Positions 220-40,179 of a stretch of 64,000 nucleotides of DNA are shown here, in pieces (positions within the stretch are counted from its first letter, which is position 1; each line of letters starts with the position of its first letter). The notes beneath the pieces were generated by a model. That model did no database searches. It was not told the origin of the DNA and saw nothing but the letters and a program-made list of their open reading frames with translations. Both the position numbers and the translations under genes were made by a program. The stretch is from NCBI GenBank assembly GCA_000349905.1, contig KB722748.1:368798-432797 (forward strand). Reading direction: 5' to 3'. The DNA comes from Volvariella volvacea V23. Lineage: Eukaryota > Basidiomycota > Agaricomycetes > Agaricales > Pluteaceae.

Positions 220-430
220 CACCATGCTTAACCTACACAAGTTAACACCTTGCTCCGCATTCAGGATGACAGTGGATGTTGATACCACTTCCCCAACCTT
301 AGTATTTAATATCGCGTTGGCCTCCGCCAGATCCTTAGACCATGTCATCGAGGTTTGGCGCGTATCCCTTGTCCGCAATACCAACTCATTCTGGGATTGC
401 TCTCGGGGTTGGAAATAAGCGGGCTTAGCG
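220..430 (+). pseudogene. Relic of an F-box-family protein
   Basis: An open stretch on the plus strand translates to DVDTTSPTLVFNIALA, followed shortly by IEVWRVSL. This matches the middle of the two complete F-box paralogues further right (AIDIDTSSPMLTFNLAL and LEIWRVSL, near 31.6 kb). No F-box, splice sites or remaining domain could be found around it, and the frame closes at about 418. It is probably a decayed fragment of the same family, or the edge of a gene cut off by the window start. It also shows the ancestral orientation of a segment that is inverted in one of the two later copies. Confidence 0.5.
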
Positions 431-7143: not shown

Positions 7144-8885
7144 ATGGTCAAGCTCGCATTTTTCATTGCTGGTCTTGCTATTTCCTCCGCGAGCGGAGCT
7201 CCTCTTAAGAAGCGAATTGCACAAACTATCTCTGCTTCCACAGCCAAGTGGGAACAAGCCTGCGTGAGTATGCTGTCAAAAATTTCCTTCGCCTCTCCAT
7301 CTCTCCAATGCCCTGATCTATCATCTCTATCTACACCTTACGGCCACCAAACAAATGACTTCATTTATAATTGATCATGCTGTCACTATTGTCCCCTCCC
7401 CGACTCCTCGGTATCCCAATATGGAATTTTCACTGATCTTCTCTCGTTTCGTAATTGTTAGCTTGCCGCTGGCGGTGGTCAGCAGTGTAATCCACTCTCG
7501 GTTACTGCGTTCAGCACTTTGCTCGCTGCGCCCGGTCCTTGTGAGCAGCAAGATGCCGCAGATAGCATGATTGACTTGGCTAAAACCCTCGGAAACGATG
7601 CTGAGATGATCAGGTTGGCACAAATTTTCGCTCAACAGCCCCGTAATACCGTAAGTCTCGGGCCTTTTATACTGTCACATTCGTTACTAATAGTCCGCTG
7701 CATAGCCCACTTCCCTGAGCACGCCTTACTGCCAGACTGCACCCCGTAATCCCGAACTCAACGGCCTATTCCAGTGCCAGTTTGCGAGTGCCAACCTCAA
7801 CACATTCGTTGGTGGTATCGCAGTTGGTGGTGCAGGCACCGTTCCATTCGGTCTCTCAGCTCCCCTCAACCCCCTTGGCTCTTGCCCTGCAAAACCTGAT
7901 GGCCCAGTCCCAGATGGCGAACAACTGGTTGATCTCGTTCAGAGTCCTGGTTCCGGCAATGCGCCTTCTCCTGGTGGAAATAATAGTGGAAATGCACCCC
8001 CTCCACTAGCATCTTCGACTACCGTTGCCGCACCACCTGCGGCTACGACTTCGATGGGAGGAGGAGCTGGAGGAAACTTCAGGCTTCAGAACGGGCGTGA
8101 TGCACAGGCTCTTAACGCCAGGTTCGCAACGCTGACAGCAGACTCGCCTTGCTCTTGTACGTTCGAGCTCCTAGGTTCAGGTTTACCCATTTTCTAACCT
8201 CCCCAACAGCTGGTGACCAAGCATGTGTCAACGGGGGCTTCGCTCAGTGCGTCAACGGAAGATTTGCCATCACCTCTTGCGGTGCAACCCTCACGTGCGC
8301 TGCTCTTCCTCTCGTCAACAACCCAGGAACGTCCATTACTTGCACGACTCAAGCTGATGCTGTCGCCCGTATTGAAGCTACTGGTGCCACCGGTGGATTG
8401 ACTGGTAACGGTTCAGGATCCAATGCTCCAGCCCCAGCTCCTGCACCATCACCATCACCATCCCCCTCTCCTGCTCCACCTGTGAACAACACACCCTCAG
8501 GAGGCAATACGGGCTCTGGTGCTGGTGGATTCCGACTCCAGAATGGACAGGATGCTCAAGCTTTGAACGCCAAATTCGCAGGTCTCTCTGCCGACTCTAG
8601 CTGCACTGGTACGTCTTACACCTCACTCTCCAAGTTAATGAGGATAGCTCACCTCTAAATCTCTATTTCTATGTCTACATAGATGGCGACCAAGCCTGTG
8701 TCAACGGTGGATTTGCACAATGCGTTGGCGGCCAGTTCGTCATCACCCCTTGTGCAGGCGGTCTCATCTGCGCCGCTTTGCCACTCGTGAACAGCCCTGG
8801 AACTTCAATTGCTTGCACGACTCAGGCAGATGCCCTGGCTAGGATCCAAGCTACGGGAGCTACAGGTGGCATTACTGGTGCCTGA
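7144..8885 (+). CDS. Secreted protein with two chitin-binding-like modules
   Basis: Five exons join in phase: 7144-7263, 7462-7650, 7706-8156, 8210-8608 and 8683-8885. The N-terminus MVKLAFFIAGLAISSASGAP is a signal peptide, followed by a KKR basic site. A first domain of about 150 residues with paired cysteines (CEQQDAADSMIDLAKTLG) leads into Pro/Ser-rich linkers. Then come two copies of a module beginning FRLQNGxDAQALNAxFA and containing GDQACVNGGFAQCVNGxF, a conserved C, ALPLVNxPGTSIxCTTQADA and ending ATGATGG. The GDxACxxGxFAxCxxGxF spacing resembles CBM19-type chitin-binding modules; that link is an inference from the cysteine pattern only. Such proteins are common in Agaricomycete secretomes. 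The CDS ends shortly after the second module at TGA 8883-8885. Confidence 0.85.
7938..8882 (+). repeat. Tandem duplicated module within the secreted protein
   Basis: The module (about 90 residues) occurs twice, separated by an Ala/Pro/Ser-rich linker (APAPAPSPSPSPSPAP). The first copy runs from about 8076 to 8400, the second from about 8527 to 8880. Each is interrupted by an intron directly before GDQAC, in phase 1. The copies differ at scattered residues, so the duplication is not recent. Confidence 0.8.
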
Positions 8886-30977: not shown

Positions 30978-31052
30978 AACCTGGTTCTGGTGTTTGTTAC
31001 CTGCTCCAGATCGACTAGTTGACGTTCGTGTCGCACGCTCCATAAGGACAAG

Positions 31053-32707
31053 ATGAGAAATGTGTCTTCGCTGGTGAACTTGCCGCCAGAAATATCATTG
31101 AGAACTATTCGAGAGCTATCTTGGAAAGATGTTCTTCGAGTCAGACAGGTATGCAGTATCATTCGACCTAGTTCGTGGACAAGGTCATGATTACGGAACC
31201 ATTTTTAGACCTGCAAATACTTGTACGGCATCTCAAAAACCAAATTTATATGGCAAGCTATCGCTTATAGGGAATTCTCCTGCGGTTCACACCATCCGCC
31301 TGATTTGTACTTGGAACGACCCATCAATACGTATACCGCTGAAGAATTGGAGCACCTCATTCTTCGTTGGAAGAGTGCAGAGATTGGATGGAGAACAGAC
31401 GATGGTGCACCAACTCGCGAACGTAGACTCAATTTTGGGTTTCCGCCTGATATTCAAGTAGATTGTCTTCACCTCATAAGAGGCGGGAGATGGTTACTAG
31501 TGGGACTCACCTCAGGCTCCATTGTGTTCTACGATCTCGATGAAAGCGACCCGACTCCTCGTGTTCTCATCCCTCAACCTCAATCAATTCCTGATGCAGT
31601 TCAGATGGCTATAGATATCGATACCTCATCCCCGATGTTAACCTTCAATCTTGCATTGACCTTTGGATTCGAGCTCGAAATTTGGCGCGTATCACTTGAA
31701 TACGACTCCCATTCTTCAACATCCAACCTGGTTGCTCACCGACTCAAGTCGTTCCAACCAGAACCTTATGGCCGAGTACCCACAATTTCGATTCTTGGGG
31801 AATATTTGGCATATTCTCTTGTACACGATGAAGCAGATATCAAACATGCAATTGTTATGCGTTGGGTTGACTTGGGAGATACGCCATCAAACTATGATAA
31901 ATGGGCCAAACGCACCCAATTCTCTGTAAGAGTTCTTGTTCACCTCTGACAAATGTGCTCACATTTAACTAGGTGCGCGTCCATCTCCTTCCTGAAGGCC
32001 GTATACTTCTTCGCATTGAATCCGTTGTCTTTCTTTACTATTTTCTTTCCTTCCCCAGAATAAGAGACATATCCGAACTAGGGGTGGGCATAGGTGGTAT
32101 ATTGCCACTCTGGGTCGCGCATCCTGACAAGCATACTCACCAAGAGTACATTCCAGAAGTCACATTTTGCAGAGATTCTGTTCGAATGATCACCTCTACA
32201 AAGAGTGAGGTTTACGGCCTTCTTATACGCAATCCAGAAGACGGGACTATGTCAAACGATTTCGGGGAGATGGTTAAGCTTGGGGATATTCCACGGGGCA
32301 CATTCTTCACATTCGCTCCCGAAGCTTCTCATGGCTATCGTCACTCTGCACTTTGGGAAGGCTCCACGCTCACATTGATTCACCATCCATGGCCGGATGA
32401 CGCCTGTGAGAAGCAATTCACTGTGGTTCAAAAGAAACCCACTCTTCGTGGTGAGGTGCATTTGCCACCAGAATCGGACATTGGTGCAGGAAGGATGGTG
32501 ATATCGTACTCTTCAAAGATGCCTGGAGTGCCCCGGGTGGCGTTATTGTCTGTATTTCTAACAAGTGCTTCGGAAATCGGGTCAAGTGAGGCCACCCAGA
32601 ATAGCAATAATGAGAATGTCATGCAGGATGGCACGAAGTACAAAAAAACGTACATTGAGAAACCCACACGACGACCGTTTAGGCGAGCAGATAAGGGCAA
32701 CGACTGA
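31053..32707 (+). CDS. F-box protein, inverted-pair copy 1
   Basis: Exons 31053-31148, 31209-31925 and 31973-32707 join in phase 0. Exon 1 encodes the F-box: MRNVSSLVNLPPEISLRTIR then ELSWKDVLRVRQ, and exon 2 continues TCKYLYGISKTKFIWQAIA. F-box proteins usually bring substrates to SCF ubiquitin ligases through Skp1. The rest is a beta-strand-rich substrate region (CLHLIRGGRWLLVGLTSGSI; VFYDLDESDPTPRVLIPQPQ; LGEYLAYSLVHDE; GYRHSALWEGSTLTLIHHPW), as in many Agaricomycete F-box proteins with propeller-like repeats. From about 32508 the C-terminus (SYSSKMPGVPRVALLSVF and on, about 65 residues) differs completely from the paralogue and is Asn/Lys/Arg-rich, so this copy is probably chimeric at its 3' end. 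The substrate is unknown. Confidence 0.8.
31118..31972 (+). repeat. Inverted repeat arm 1 (identity island)
   Basis: End of exon 1, intron 1, exon 2 and intron 2 of F-box copy 1 are almost identical to the reverse complement of about 39113-39964, including both introns. Sequence outside this island, though homologous and coding, is clearly more diverged. Confidence 0.8.
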
Positions 32708-34167
32708 CACAGGAGGCTGACATGGCAAACTTACGTCAAGCCCCAGCCTCTCAGCCTCGTTCCATCCAGATCTCACCCATGATATCCCAGTTCTTCCACG
32801 GGTTTGCGGCACCATATGCCAATACGCCCGAGGTTTTCACTCCATTATTCCTGAATTGTTTTTTCCTTGACAATCCGCCTCTACTTGACCATATATATGT
32901 AGTTGAGACCCACTCAGGTGCTTCTGTTGGCATAATCAGTAGCATCATATTTTCGGACGCGACGTTGCCGGTAAACAGCTCGCTCTATGTTCTATGGGTG
33001 AAAGCGTTTCTACATCCAATGAAGAGGAGTTCGCCGGTCAGCTAAACCTTACCACACCTCAAGAGTTGGTTCGAGCTCAATCCTACACAGAGAGCAGGGG
33101 AATACCAGGCACTAGCAAAACCTAAGTATATGCACCTGCATCTCATTTGTGCTGCTCTCCGAGGCATGCCTATACCTCCGCCTTGAATTCTGTCACGCTC
33201 ATGTTATTTCGAAGACAACCCTACTCCACCCCCCACCACGCCAGTCGTGGGGCACACAGTTTACCCCATCCACGTCGACGTCATCGTCACAGGCTCATGT
33301 TATCGAAACAACACTCGCCACAACGGACTACGCGAGCAACGAAGAGAAGCGCATCGCATACTCCAACCAACTCTCACACCAAACGGACACGCTCGTCTGT
33401 GGGAGCTGGGCATACGAGCCCATGGTCCACGCCCGCCATACGAATGGCGGCCCATCGCTCCCTGTGATTCTTTACCCACCTCTCAAAGACATTGTGCTCG
33501 TCTTGTCGTCCTCCGACCTGATTCGAGCGAATTCCCTCTGGGACATCTCAACGGACAGGCCGTTCTACTGGCCAGCGACGTCTGATTTTCCGGGTATAGA
33601 TATGCCCTCCTCTATTCCCCGGCCAAGCATTGCATGTACGTGATCCAAACAGCCATTTCGCCAGCGCATTTCAGGATGCCGCTTGCTCGCATGGTGAAAG
33701 CGAGGAACGAATTGCTGCCCCCGTTCTTCAAGAGTGAAACCCTTTCTGGAACGTTTTAAAGGTTGATTTTAATGGGACCGGAGAAGACAATCTGTGATGA
33801 ACCCGAATGAATTTGAGGAGTACGGTTATATGTTTAATACGGAGATTTGGGGTGTGTGTTCAATGAATCTAGGAATGGGACGCATGTAAGTAGTGCTCTG
33901 CAGTTTCTAGCTGGAGGTCAGCGATTTAATGACGTTTGTAGGTTTCATCAGAACGGGAGTTCCCCGGATCGTATGCAAGATACACCGTTTAATGCTGCAT
34001 TTGAATTAAGAGCTGGAGGGTGGGGTCACCGGCGACGAGTTTCCTATTTACTACACCCACACCAACCTGTGTAGATGTATGCACGACTTTCTCTTGAGTG
34101 GACACGATACTTTTATGATAAGGACTAGAGGGCATGTATTACTTTGCATTAAATAACGAGATTAGAT
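32708..34167 (+). pseudogene. Pseudogene-like region, unknown family
   Basis: Several plus-strand blocks look like protein but are in different frames or broken by stops. Examples: IQISPMISQFFHGFAAPYAN (from 32761), NEEEFAGQLNLTTPQELVRA (from about 33020), DYASNEEKRIAYSNQLSHQT, LVCGSWAYEPMVHARHTNGG, LWDISTDRPFYWPATSDFPG (33300-33600), then PLARMVKARNELLPPFFKSE (to about 33740) and EFEEYGYMFNTEIWGVCSMN (33810-33870). In-frame stops lie between the last two. Most likely a decayed multi-exon gene to the right of the F-box insertion. A real gene with unplaced introns cannot be excluded. Family not recognised. Confidence 0.4.
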
Positions 34168-35244
34168 CTAACTGGTGGTAGCGGGAACGTCACTGGATGA
34201 GGGCTTGGGCGGAGCAAACGTGATCTGTTCTCCCTTCTCGCGCATCTCCCGCCATTCCTCGACCTGGTCCGCAATAAGCTTCTCCCTCTTCTCTCTACGC
34301 TCTGCAACGAGCCTGAGGATATGCGACCTCTTGGTGGCCAAAGGCTCCTTGAATGCCCATCCCTTGGCCTGGCCCTTTGTGAGTCGCAATAGCTCGTACT
34401 TCTGCATATTCCTCGTCGCCTGGATCTGGAAGTTGTCCTCGATCCATTTCTCCCTGGCTTCTCTCTCCTTTGGCTCCATGTCTTCCACTCGGTGCGGGTA
34501 GTAGAAGGGGTCGACGAGACCGACTACAGCCCGTTTATATGTCTTGAATGCTTTACGCTTATTCCGCATGCGGGGGAAAATGGGAGAGATATAGTTGTCC
34601 GTGCGGATGTAGGTCGTCTGGACACCATAGACGGCAAGCAGGTAGGAGCGGATATCCGTTTTTGTGATAGACCTAGGAACACGGAATGTCGCCTCGTATG
34701 GGTTGTAAGGTTGGCCCGGCGGAGTGTTGTTCCGCACGAGTCGGAAAATGATATTGGGAAGGTAGACTCTTCGTCCCAGAACCTCTGTCTCCTCTCTGCC
34801 ACCTCTCACCACTGTCCGTACACCACGAATTCTGGAGCGTCTCGCGTTGACCTTCTTGATCCACTCCCTCTTCGTCAGAACCCGTCCGTCTTCCTTGACG
34901 AGCTGCCCTTTGGCCTTGAGACGTTGGTACCGTGCCAAGTCGGATGGCGTTAATCCTTCGCGTGTTGCATCAGACTCGCCCTCCGCAACTGGACCAGACT
35001 TTTTCTGGCGGCGCAGACGAACTGCTAGTGGTGTGGATGCAGTCCTAGCTGCCAACGCCGCGGGCGGAAGAGTTGGTGTTTTTGTTGCATAGGATCGCGT
35101 GGAAAGTGCAAGTCGCGTGAGTGGCTGATGGGAGACCGAGCTTGAGAGCGGCACAGAGAGCGAGCGCATCGAACGCGCGCCCAGGCAACGTAGGGACTGC
35201 ATCTGGGACTGTACCAGACGGGAGGAGTTGAGGAAGCTGAACAT
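34168..35244 (-). CDS. Mitochondrial ribosomal protein uL23m
   Basis: A single-exon CDS from ATG 35244 (MFSFLNSSRLVQSQ) to 34168, about 358 residues. The frame extends upstream, but the mitochondrial presequence begins at this Met. The N-terminal 70 residues are rich in Ser/Arg and poor in acids, as expected for import, ending near RSYATKTP. The uL23 core reads VYLPNIIFRLVRNNTPPGQP, YEATFRVPRSITKTDIRSYL and LAVYGVQTTYIRTDNYISP. The C-terminal extension (EREAREKWIEDNF; HILRLVAERREKREKLIADQ) is typical of fungal Mrp20-type proteins. It sits at the exit of the mitoribosomal tunnel in the large subunit. The gene is divergent from the phosphatase gene, with only 179 nt between the two starts, so they probably share a promoter. 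Confidence 0.88.
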   Translation of the reverse strand: MFSFLNSSRLVQSQMQSLRCLGARSMRSLSVPLSSSVSHQPLTRLALSTRSYATKTPTLPPAALAARTASTPLAVRLRRQKKSGPVAEGESDATREGLTPSDLARYQRLKAKGQLVKEDGRVLTKREWIKKVNARRSRIRGVRTVVRGGREETEVLGRRVYLPNIIFRLVRNNTPPGQPYNPYEATFRVPRSITKTDIRSYLLAVYGVQTTYIRTDNYISPIFPRMRNKRKAFKTYKRAVVGLVDPFYYPHRVEDMEPKEREAREKWIEDNFQIQATRNMQKYELLRLTKGQAKGWAFKEPLATKRSHILRLVAERREKREKLIADQVEEWREMREKGEQITFAPPKPSSSDVPATTS

Positions 35245-35423
35245 TGCGCCGAATTTTTCCAAGCCTGAAACACGTGACGTGTAGCGTGTCAATGTCAGTC
35301 TTGGGCTCGGTGGCGGGTGTCTACCCCAGGAGACGGAATCAATCTCCCCTCCGACCTCGACACCCCTCCGCACATCACCACAGTCCGCGAGCGCCCAGGC
35401 CGCACTGACACCGCCCAGCCGAC
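35245..35423. promoter_or_regulatory. Shared divergent promoter
   Basis: 179 nt separate the starts of the uL23m gene and the phosphatase gene. No clear TATA box is seen, as is common for housekeeping pairs. Confidence 0.5.
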
Positions 35424-38057
35424 ATGGCGGTCACAATATGGAGAATCCTTCGCGCCCTGCAGAAAGCTTGTGCACCCGTTGTAGCAGTTATCAGTTTCTC
35501 GTTCATGCTCACCTTCATCTTCATCCTATACCAGCCATCCTACGGGCCAGGACTAGCTCAGAGACTCAGTTGGCAGTCATGGGACAGCATAACAATGCCG
35601 GACGAACTCGGGACTCTGCCAGCAGGAAGCATAACCACTGGATCATCCAATCAAACAGATGACGACGTGGAAGTTCCAGAGGGTGTGGACTGGTGGAACG
35701 TCACAACCACAACGGACACATTCGATTCAACGAGTTTGCCGTTAGATGTATGGACTCCTTTGTTGCCTCATGACACCGGATGTAAGTTGTAGCCATTTTG
35801 CCATTGCGCCAAGCGTTGGCGATTGTGGAGTGTGTCGGCTAATGACCAACTCGCTTGACTAGTGTCAGAAATCACCGTGACGAAATGCATGATGGATCCG
35901 GATATGAATGAGGATATGTGTGCGCCGGATTCGACATCTCAACAGGATGCGATTAAGGGGTCATGGGTGCGGGTGGAGAGAGATCTTAACATGCAGTTTG
36001 GCTACTTCTCAGGCTGGCTGGTATGTCTTGAATTTGATCCCACAACCCACCATATCTTATATTCCACTAACAGAGCGTTTATTATCGACGGACAAGACGA
36101 CGGGATGTCAAACTCATAACCGACATTGTACTACTGCCGGAGGACGAACAACCTGAGGGTGATGGTTGGGAGAAAGCCGAAACATCGCTTCGTGCAGGTG
36201 TTCTTCGTGCACCTCCTCTCTATCTCTGGTATCGTCTAGGCAAAACAGCGGCAGAAATGAACACTGAGGAGAAGGCAAATCTTATCACCGAACTGGATGT
36301 TCTAGCAGGCGAAGACGTGCCATGGTACGGATTCGAGAAACTGGAGCCTGCTACGACGTTGCCACAAGATAATAGGCTCTCTGTCTGGTTGACATACCGT
36401 CGTGGAGTAAAGAGTATGTCCTCCCTTCCTATTGTTACCAATTCATAGACTGATCACCATATAAATCCCGCGTCAGTACCTCCAAAGGCCCCACCGCTAC
36501 ACTTTTCCCATGATGGAAAGTTCAAAATCATGCAAGTCGCCGATCTTCACTACTCTGTCTCCCAAGGTGTCTGCCGCGACACCCTCCTCGACCCTTGTGA
36601 GGCTGCAGACAACCTCACAAACTCCCTCCTTGGCCGCATGCTTGACAAAGAGAAGCCAGATCTCATAGTCTTCACAGGAGACCAACTCAACGGACAGGAT
36701 ACGTCCTGGGATCCCAGGTCCGTGTTGGCCAAGTTTGCGCGAGCGGTGACGGATAGACAGATTCCGTGGGCCGCGGTGTTTGGGAACCACGACGAGGAGG
36801 ATGGGATGGCGAAGTGGGAGCAGGTGCGGTTGATGAAGGCTTTGCCATATAGTTTGGTGGAGAGAGGGCCGAGAGATGTGCATGGTGTGGCGAATTATGT
36901 GTTGAAGGTCAAGAGCGCTGATGCGTAAGTGCCGTCTGCTGTTAGGGGTTTGGTTGGATTTTTTATATGCACCGGTATTTGTGAATTGACAGGTCGAGAA
37001 CGCACCTGCTTACGCTGTACTTCCTCGACTCTGGATCGTACTCGAAAGGGTTCTTTGATTGGTGGGGATTCTTTACTCCTACTGCGTATGATTGGATACA
37101 CGAGGTACACCCTTCCCTGCATTATCACTTTTACGACCCGACTTAGTATTCATGCTCCAGAACCAAATCGACTGGTTCCTCGAAGAGTCAGGTAACATCC
37201 CATTCCCTTCTCACAACCAAGTACAGCCGGGTTGATACTAATTGCACTTTTGCTTAGCCTCGATAAGCCCCATTGAACGTCCTTTCAGACCAGACTCAGG
37301 CAGAGACATTGGCCACGCATGGCAAGTCAAACGCCAATCAGACCAAGTAACACCCGAAACTCGAAAGCTCGCCAAACCAAACGCGATGATGTTCTTCCAC
37401 ATCCCTCTGTTCGTAATATCCACCCCGCCCTTTTGTTTCCTTCCCACCGTTGACCACGTTTGATTGTATAGGCCGGAAGCTTATGACACTGCAGACCAAG
37501 ATCCACGAACGGGTAAACCTTTAGATGTCGGAATTCACGACCTCGAAAAACCGGGAAACGCAAAGGAGAATGGAGGAATGTTCCAAAATGGCTTGTTGAA
37601 AGCAGAGGAAAGCGACCACGTTGCGAGACACGCTCCAGAGGTCAAGGTGGTTGCCAACGGGCATTGTCATCGTGAGTGATGGGATATGAAAGAGGCGAGA
37701 ATGAATGCTGAGTGGTGGCTTTTTAGTCACGGAGAATTGTCGACGGATTAAAGGCATTTGGATGTGCTTTGGCGGTGGAGGGTGAGTCTCGCTTGGATTT
37801 GTATTCAACTTATATTCTGACGCAGGATTCGTGCTATTTAGCTCGTATTCTGGCTATGGCAAGATTGGGTACGTGTTTACATAAAAGTATTCGTAAGTGG
37901 ATCGCCTAACACATCCCCCAGTTTCGACCGGAGATTCAGAATATACGAGATCTCTGATTACGGCGAAACGATCAAGACGTGGAAGCGGACCGAGAATGAC
38001 GACGTTATCGACGAGCAAATTCTGTCAGGGGCGGGCTCACCGCCGTTAGTACAGTGA
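35424..38057 (+). CDS. Dcr2-type metallophosphoesterase
   Basis: Many exons; the first ends at 35781 and the last closes at TGA 38055-38057. A single N-terminal membrane segment (VVAVISFSFMLTFIFILY) is followed by an acidic lumen-like stretch. The calcineurin-like phosphoesterase motifs are all present and ordered: KIMQVADLHYSVSQG (metal-binding D and H), DLIVFTGDQLNGQD (GDxx), WAAVFGNHDEEDG (GNHD), MFFHIPL, VVANGHCH (GHxH). The spacing matches the fungal Dcr2/Sia1 purple-acid-phosphatase-like family. Yeast Dcr2 acts in cell-cycle start and in down-regulating the unfolded-protein response. NQIDWFLEES and SGYGKIGFDRRFRIYEISD complete the family's C-terminal part. Substrate and location here are inferred. 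Confidence 0.88.
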
Positions 38058-38524
38058 CGAGCGGTGTGGAGGGATTGATTTAGATGGTTGCTTTCGTGTC
38101 GTAGTGTACGATTAATGCACTGTGATTTTGATATCTTACAGTCCGACGGGCTCGGCTTGGCGGAAATGCGCGATTGTGTGAAAGACGTACTGCAGATCTA
38201 CCTACCGTGATACGATGTGTTGTCGATCCTACCATCCACATGCCTTTTTTTCCACCCTGGTTTCTGCAGGATGGGATATATGTTCTTAACCTGAAAGAAA
38301 AGTTAGCTCACGTACGGTGCCAATTGCAGTATATTACACAGCAGCAGAAGAAATAGGGAAAGATGAGAGGAAAGAATTGGAGTCAGCAAGCATGAAGATA
38401 GTATTCTCTTTATCGTTATATTGGGTGGGTAGTCTCATTTGATTGGATTACCAGTGCACTTATTGGAAATATAGACACTAACGCCCCCCAAGAGCTCATG
38501 ACTTCTTTGGAGGATGCAAGGGAT
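38058..38524. other. Intergenic, no gene seen
   Basis: Between two convergent genes (phosphatase and F-box copy 2). No coding signal. Confidence 0.5.
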
Positions 38525-40029
38525 TCATGCATTAAATCGTCCTAGCTCCATAACGGTGAAAGTTCCATTCCATTGATATATCACCACCCTTCCTGCACCA
38601 ATGTCCGATTCCAGTGGCAGGTGAGCCTTACCATGAAGAGTGGGTTTCTTTTGAACAACGGTGAAGTGCTTCTCGCAGGCCTCATCTGGCCATGGATGGT
38701 AAATCAATGTGAGCGTGGAGCCTTCCCAAAGTGCAGAGTGACGATAGCCATGAGAAGCTTTGGGAGTGAGTATGAAAAATGTGCCCCGCGGAATATCTCC
38801 AAGCTTAACCATCTCCCCGATATCGTTCGATGTAGTTTGGCCTTCTGGATTATGTATGAGAATTCCATAGACCCCACTCTTTGTAGAAGTGATTACTCTA
38901 ATGGAACCTCTGCAAAAGCTGAGCTCTGGAATGTGCTTTTGGTGAGTGTCCTTGTCAGGATGCGCGACCCAGAGTGGCAATATACCACCTATGCCCACCC
39001 CTAGTTCGGATATGTCTCTTATTCTGGGGAAGGAAAGATAGTTGTAAAGAAAAACATTCGATCCATTGCGGAGAAGTATGTAACCTTGAGGAAGAAGGCG
39101 GACGCACATCTAGTCGAATGTGAGCACATTTGTCAGAGGTGAACAAGAACTCTTACAGAGAATTGGGTGCGTTTGGCCCATTTATCATAGTTTGATGGCG
39201 TATCTCCCAAGTCAACCCAACGCATAACAATTGCATGTTTGATATCTGCTTCATCGTGTACAAGAGAATATGCCAAATATTCCCCAAGAATCGAAATTGT
39301 GGGTACTCGGCCATAAGGTTCTGGTTGGAACGACTTGAGTCGGTGAGCAACCAGGTTGGATATTGAATAATGGGAGTCGTATTCAAGTGATACGCGCCAA
39401 ATTTCAATCTTGCATTGACCTTTGGATTCGAGCTCGAAGGTTAACATCGGGGATGAGGTATCGATATCTATAGCTATCTGGACTGCATCAGGGATTGATT
39501 GAGGTTGAGGGATGAGAACACGAGGAGTCGGGTCGCTTTCATCGAGATCGTAGAACACAATGGAGCCTGAGGTGAGCCCCACTAGTAACCATCTCCCGCC
39601 TCTTATGAGGTGAAGACAATCTACTTGAATATCAGGCGGAAACCCAAAATTGAGTCTACGTTCGCGAGTTGGTGCACCATCGTCTGTTCTCCATCCAATC
39701 TCTGCACTCTTCCAACGAAGAATGAGGTGCTCCAATTCTTCAGCGGTATACGTATTGATGGGTCGTTCCAAGTACAAATCAGGCGGATGGTGTGAACCGC
39801 AGGAGAGTTCCCTATGAGCGATAGCTTGCCATATAAATTTGGTTTTTGAGATGCCGTGCAAGTATTTGCAGGTCTAAAAATGGTTCCGTAATCATGACCT
39901 TGTCCACGAACTAGGTCGAATGATACTGCATACCTGTCTGACTCGAAGAACATCTCTCCAAGATACCCCTCGCAAAATCTCCGTTAATACCTCTGGTGGC
40001 AAGTTCACCAGTGAAGGCACCTTTCTTAT
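38525..40029 (-). pseudogene. F-box protein, inverted-pair copy 2, start codon lost
   Basis: Homologous to copy 1 along its length. Exon 1 (from 40029) encodes a diverged F-box: RKVPSLVNLPPEVLTEILRG then VSWRDVLRVRQ. Where copy 1 has ATG this copy has ATA (40029-40027), and an in-frame TAG lies eight codons earlier, so no ATG precedes the F-box in this frame. Exon 2 and both introns are nearly identical to copy 1, except for a 36-nt inversion at 39403-39438 that turns the copy-1 residues FNLALTFGFELE into FELESKGQCKIE without breaking the frame. Exon 3 (39109-38525) is moderately diverged and ends WNGTFTVMELGRFNA, which may be the original C-terminus. It could still be expressed from an unseen upstream exon. 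The call is therefore pseudogene or altered-start gene. Confidence 0.6.
39113..39964 (-). repeat. Inverted repeat arm 2 (identity island)
   Basis: Reverse complement of about 31118-31972, nearly base for base, including the 60-nt intron 1 and the intron before exon 3. Contains the 36-nt inverted block at 39403-39438. Confidence 0.8.
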
Positions 40030-40179
40030 CTTGTTATGGTATATGAATGACTAGGAGTTGTTGCGCCACTCACTGATTTTGACCGAGTTGTTGAGCTTGA
40101 GCCCGGTATCCAACGTTCAGCGTAAAGGGCAAGAGAGGAAGGGACAAGGTAAAGCAGGTCACGCTTGGACCCGGTTGGG

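Follow-up and report, generated by a model that had tools for sequence, protein, structure and literature searches.

Potapova et al. described 59 microinversions between human and chimpanzee, 17-33 nt long and all with flanking inverted repeats (PMC8755829; here and below as stated in the cited parts of that paper). Most of them are pure inversions, and the repeats at their edges are 3-75 nt long. In 8 of the 59 the repeats have only 3 nt, and 6 of those eight are directly adjacent. Short repeats of this kind are reported to fit microhomology-mediated break repair better than template switching at the fork (PMC8755829). Only one of the 59 is exonic; it lies outside the coding part and leaves the protein unchanged. 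In great apes, coding regions are depleted of short-range template switch events (PMC7954356, in the portion cited), most of which measure less than 15 nt by the account of PMC8755829. In Saccharomyces cerevisiae, spacers of 2-5 bp are inverted between arms of more than 9 bp, and the spacer changes at most two residues (Abraham and Hazkani-Covo 2021, PMC8604942, in the sections cited here).

The microinversion described here was found in an F-box gene of Volvariella volvacea V23, in a window (the whole stretch of DNA analysed) of 64,000 nt, C13:368798-432797, from a genome of 35.39 Mb in 54 contigs. Like the human-chimpanzee class, it is an in-place reverse complement of more than 15 nt with an adjacent 3-nt repeat, and its polarity comes from outgroups. 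Unlike that class, as represented in the cited parts of PMC8755829, it changes nine residues and sits in an inverted gene duplication with probable conversion. With the great-ape events (PMC7954356, portion cited) it shares a short reverse-complemented segment in place, and with the yeast spacer inversions (PMC8604942, sections cited) a flipped coding stretch between inverted repeats that is strain-polymorphic in a fungus. However, the perfect arms have only 3 nt here, the spacer has 30 nt, and there is no significant hairpin. Since the yeast arms exceed 9 bp and their spacers measure 2-5 bp, the present case is not of the yeast type in detail. The homogenised inverted arms recall arm-to-arm conversion in the human Y palindrome P6 (PMC3723533, as far as the cited part goes), whereas the tract here is short (about 835 bp), its flanks have diverged, and a patch of differences surrounds the inversion. 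The microinversion itself is of a known kind; what is unusual is that nine residues of a predicted beta-hairpin are replaced. The present case was not found reported in the open-access literature among the matches listed.

The inverted duplication and its gene models

In a blastn self-comparison of the window, 31048-32504 aligns to 40034-38578 as an inverted repeat with 91.8% identity over 1458 columns (Table 1). This alignment of both arms bears out the first-pass annotation, in which the flanks of the block were said to be reverse-complemented between the copies. The first splice of the copy 1 model is that of P0001, a protein of the strain WC 439. Copy 2 has ATA at the place of the copy 1 ATG (40029) and an in-frame TAG a few codons upstream, which could double as a 3' splice site. 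The ATA and the upstream stop suggest that copy 2 either has an upstream starting exon or is decaying. At the other end, about 59 nt with which the copy 2 ORF ends, stop included (38525-38577), are missing from copy 1 (32503-32707), so that the copy 1 ORF runs on into an unrelated tail. This tail is also present in P0004 of WC 439. The ending of copy 2 (TVMELGRFNA) is similar to that of the paralogue P0009.

Table 1. Positions of the features discussed, numbered from the first base of the window
Feature	Position	Strand	Remarks
Arm 1 of the inverted duplication (F-box copy 1)	31048..32504	+	blastn self-comparison
Arm 2 of the inverted duplication (F-box copy 2)	38578..40034	-	blastn self-comparison
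Spacer between the arms	32505-38577		
Copy 1 gene model, 515 aa	31053..32707	+	exons 31053-31148, 31209-31925, 31973-32707
Copy 2 gene model, 465 codons	38525..40029	-	exons 40029-39934, 39873-39157, 39109-38525
Spacer gene, mitochondrial ribosomal protein L23	34168..35373	-	Pfam PF00276 in matches
Block in copy 1, upright (read as ancestral)	31644..31679	+	encodes FNLALTFGFELE; minimal inverted part 31647-31676
Block in copy 2, inverted	39403..39438	-	encodes FELESKGQCKIE; minimal inverted part 39406-39435
Left breakpoint end, TTC of the 3-nt inverted repeat	31644..31646	+	
Right breakpoint end, GAA of the 3-nt inverted repeat	31677..31679	+	
Near-identical tract, read as ectopic gene conversion	31131..31965	+	9 point differences in 799 non-block sites
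Patch around the block with more differences	31589..31720	+	5/96 non-block sites versus 4/703 in the rest

A flipped block in an open reading frame

As noted earlier from the sequence, the same 36-mer lies on the plus strand at 31644 and 39403, and these are its only two occurrences in the window. The sense reading of copy 1 is ...GATGTTAACC-TTCAATCTTGCATTGACCTTTGGATTCGAGCTCGAA-ATTTGG..., and in copy 2 identical near flanks enclose the reverse complement of TTCAATCTTGCATTGACCTTTGGATTCGAGCTCGAA. In sense orientation 16 of the 36 block positions differ between the copies; once one block is inverted, the count falls to 0/36. On this comparison chance is no credible explanation for 36 of 36 matches in register. 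Because both orientations begin with TTC and end with GAA, the breakpoints are uncertain by 3 nt per end and the inversion may span 30-36 nt. The minimal segment of 30 nt gives the best reverse-complement gain. The earlier description of an exact 36-nt inversion thus holds for the identity of the block (36/36), whereas the minimal inverted length is 30 nt and not necessarily 36.

The reading frame of the inverted copy stays open, in line with the claim of an in-frame inversion. The block encodes residues 178-189 in both spliced models, and 9 of these 12 residues change, rather than all twelve. Its length, a multiple of three, had been offered as the reason for the intact frame; this is irrelevant, since no inversion affects the downstream frame. 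In exon 2 of copy 1, 360 of the 691 possible 36-nt inversions would keep the frame open.

Ancestral orientation

Polarity was scored at the 16 block sites where copy 1 and copy 2 differ. Apart from the pair itself, three family members contain a block that is equally long: C15_156k, C15_210k, and the fragment C13_353k (L014), which was left out of the ten-member alignment and compared separately. They carry the copy 1 state at 9, 12, and 8 sites, respectively, and the copy 2 state at 2, 2, and 3. Blocks of other lengths were compared as well. The 57-nt blocks of C20_257k and C20_110k match copy 1 at 22 and 25 of 36 aligned positions, versus 14 and 18 for copy 2, and the 48-nt block of a relic gives 20 matches to copy 1 versus 12 to copy 2. 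C13_366k (9 versus 9 of 18) and C20_114k (16 versus 15) favour neither state, and C26_110k was left unscored because its matches stop short of the block. The relic is an F-box family fragment at the left end of the window (254-388), and with its frame checked it does read VFNIALA, as first reported. A longer paralogue (C13:366141-366839) adjoins it, about 2 kb outside the window.

The orientation can also be read from a reverse-complement scan of 45 pairs among ten aligned family members. Against C15_210k, the block of copy 2 appears inverted, with 23/30 matches reverse-complemented versus 13/30 direct. Against C15_156k the figures are 26/38 and 18/38, a gain of 8 that is barely above the background (up to 7 in well-aligned pairs). 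In the same scan the block of copy 1 reads as uninverted against both.

Among 21 database proteins aligned, out of 77 from a wider profile search, the block starts with F-[N/K]-[L/I] in 17 (read by eye). FELE is found in two, both from V. volvacea WC 439; P0032 has FAIA, and in P0002 the block is shortened. Relatives in other mushroom genera mostly keep the FNL-type start. Together, the equal-length paralogues, the reverse-complement scan, and the block starts of the database relatives indicate that the upright orientation of copy 1 is the ancestral one, as the first-pass annotation had it.

Probable gene conversion between the arms

Divergence between the copies is 24% just outside the near-identical tract on either side, with 19/78 differences on the left (31053-31130) and 22/91 on the right (31966-32056). 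Within the tract it falls to 4/458 at 31131-31588 (0.87%) and 0/245 at 31721-31965 (0%), and the 60-nt intron 1, which lies inside, is identical in both copies. Farther right, 54/375 positions differ (32130-32504). The sharp identity steps and the identical intron fit conversion between the arms, and the tract of about 835 bp would accordingly represent ectopic gene conversion. Between the flanks with 24% and 14% divergence there is also a stretch with 0/73 differences (32057-32129), which may be either a second small conversion patch or a region under strong constraint.

Around the block the differences are more frequent than in the rest of the tract (Fisher P = 0.002), and 5 of the 9 tract differences lie within 57 nt of it (P = 0.005). 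Note that such a cluster anywhere in the tract has P = 0.14, so the clustering round the block is modest. Among the neighbouring differences, 31601 looks derived in copy 1 and 31607 and 31714 in copy 2; for 31589 and 31720 the derived copy is not assignable. WC 439 is without the two right-hand copy-2 changes near the block. A mutation shower accompanying the inversion was considered and is not supported, since derived states are mixed between the copies; an older patch that escaped conversion fits better than a burst of mutation.

The block in a second strain

The closest database proteins to those of the window come from V. volvacea WC 439. P0001 and P0004, both of the gene models found there for the pair, carry the inverted FELESKGQCKIE, and both are mosaics of copy-1-type and copy-2-type residues, as judged from proteins of a short-read dikaryon assembly. 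In residues 1-25, P0001 is of copy-1 type at 11 of 12 differing sites, the remaining one being novel. It is of copy-2 type at residues 38, 52, 55, and 165 and at all nine block sites, and of copy-1 type again at 201 and 203; residues 272-273 were left uncounted as part of a differently spliced tail. In P0004 the copy-2 type is found throughout the block and at each of the ten sites between 272 and 295, and the copy-1 type at 201 and 203 and over the remainder from 325 onward. Most simply, these residues would reflect a copy whose ends are of copy-1 type and whose interior was converted.

The contig with P0004 is 7,918 bases long. P0078, the L23 protein, is 100% identical over 83% of the query, and its contig also has 7,918 bases; from this equal size, P0004 and the L23 spacer gene would be on one contig. 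Counted from the left block, 7.9 kb would reach close to the right block. WC 439 is reported to be a dikaryon, and its ABySS assembly to rest on one short-range Illumina library of 300-bp fragments (PMC4122921, in the part cited). The copy-1 context of the inverted block in WC 439 could therefore be an assembly chimera, in which arms and nuclei were stitched together, and an upright allele may have been lost from the assembly.

Origin of the microinversion

We consider it probable that the V. volvacea lineage underwent a single pure microinversion of 30-36 bp in one of its F-box genes, and that arm-to-arm conversion acted separately. The inversion would have arisen, most simply once, between the two halves of the 3-nt inverted repeat TTC/GAA at its edges. 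After a break or stall, a 3' end with TTC as its last bases would most likely have annealed to GAA on the opposite strand within the same region, been extended along this wrong strand for about 30 nt, and switched back at the second TTC/GAA, which would be microhomology-mediated copying. The frame would have remained open, with 9 of the 12 residues in a predicted beta-hairpin exchanged. In a separate process, gene conversion would have made the surrounding 835 bp or so almost identical, leaving the block unlike between the arms in the strain of the window. In WC 439, at the protein level and in a draft assembly, a copy with ends of copy-1 type appears to have received the inverted block by conversion. 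What we say on the mode of copying, on the direction and date of conversion in WC 439, and on protein function is inferred from these patterns.

The random expectation for a 3-nt repeat at both edges is 1/64, and among 800 tract positions, 19 begin a 3-nt inverted repeat with this 30-nt spacing. The edge repeat has 3 perfect nt only, or 6/8 with mismatches allowed (by eye). It is weak evidence for any single mechanism. A hairpin as the driver was rejected on fold energy (z 0.22 and 1.04 versus shuffled sequence). The 12-nt palindrome at one end of the block was not found in the three paralogues with a block of equal length.

The inversion had been attributed to a template switch between the arms, in which a polymerase copying one arm would leave it for the other arm, where the block has the opposite orientation on the same template strand, and later return. 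The geometry of inverted arms allows such jumps and the block is identical in both arms, but as stated this is not supported, because homology between the arms alone leaves the orientation of the block unchanged. Inversion needs a local inverted repeat, and with TTC/GAA present a switch between arms is unnecessary: it would take two jumps across a 6-kb loop with 3 nt of homology where a local jump of 30 nt suffices. Short flanking repeats alone explain the human-chimpanzee microinversions (PMC8755829, cited parts). Since the block is identical, there is no arm-specific marker, and templates from the own copy and the other arm are indistinguishable; we regard the inter-arm switch as unlikely. 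It is distinctly unlikely that the block re-inverts repeatedly at TTC/GAA, so that the upright copy 1 may be a reversion. Yeast spacers at SPO75 and YBZ1 do flip repeatedly, but on perfect arms of 10 bp or more (PMC8604942, sections cited). The block has no differences where 1.9 are expected at the local rate of 5.2%, yet at that rate 0/36 has a probability of about 0.15, and one upright copy with the ancestral sequence requires a single event only.

End joining could also yield a pure inversion, if two double-strand breaks released the piece and it was put back in reverse. Two breaks 30 bp apart are improbable, however, the 3-nt terminal repeat would then be accidental, and end joining was rejected for microinversions of similar size (PMC8755829, cited parts), which makes it very unlikely here. 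Least likely of all, to the point of being negligible, is an error in the assembly of the genome of the window. Although long near-identical inverted repeats are difficult to assemble, the inverted block occurs in the independent WC 439 models and the upright one in paralogues, so both forms exist in genomes of the species. As the WC 439 models carry FELESKGQCKIE, the inverted form is not merely an error of this genome; the objection is largely answered for the existence of both forms, and not for their assignment to arms.

Microinversions surveyed before lie outside coding sequence (human-chimpanzee) or are flips of a few bases in genes (yeast), as far as the cited parts of those surveys go. 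The present one changes nine residues at once in an open gene, is polarised by paralogues of the same genome, and is seen in two strains. If substitutions were simply counted, its 16 base differences and 9 residue changes would look like fast evolution, although a single event produced them. The locus would also be a clean natural case for asking if gene conversion is able to carry a microinversion from one copy of a gene to another. That microinversion and conversion, possibly with repeated flipping, form a diversification route in fast-evolving mushroom F-box genes is a speculative idea to which we give little credence. Under it, one flip would swap a whole beta-hairpin of the presumed substrate-recognition domain in a single step, and conversion between the inverted arms would afterwards redistribute the upright and the flipped form over copies and strains.

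Predicted protein and structure

The two genes had been called F-box paralogues, and their closest relative, P0001, matches the F-box-like family PF12937 with 28.5 bits (Pfam cut-off 24.3). This match is that of the WC 439 protein. Exons 2 and 3 alone gave no Pfam match at E up to 1.

Exon 2 was modelled by AlphaFold2 from alignments of 40 sequences each, in which both copies of the window were joined by 38 proteins out of the 77 from the database. In exon-2 numbering the block comprises residues 142-153, and in both orientations it sits in predicted strands 141-148 and 151-162. The mean pLDDT of residues 141-150 falls from 92 in the upright to 55 in the inverted model, where strand 127-133 shortens to 131-133. 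The models suggest that the inverted block is tolerated, perhaps less well packed. The fall in pLDDT could be partly due to the alignment, most of which is upright. In a Foldseek search bearing on a possible WD40/beta-propeller substrate domain, with this one exon modelled, the ten matches with E <= 0.001 include FBXW8, SCAP WD40, TLE1, and G beta 5. Their TM-scores on the query are only 0.24-0.41, and those among the 50 listed are at most 0.45 for the one-exon model.

Other members of the family

No convincing further microinversion was found among the 45 pairs, the scan having low power at the identity of about 60% of most pairs. The largest gains were 16 for copy 1 with copy 2 and 12 for C15_210k with C26_110k. 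Four pairs had a gain of 10. Three of these involve the badly aligned fragment C26_110k, and the fourth is copy 2 with C15_210k, i.e., the same block.

Some of the paralogues on C15 and C26 and at C13:353k (L003, L004, L008, and L014) have two-frame matches or an internal stop; C15:156453-156701, for example, holds one TAA. With such matches and stops, the family seems to include decaying members. Elsewhere in the window, a direct duplication of about 200 bases with 74% identity is found at 8208-8406 and 8681-8879.
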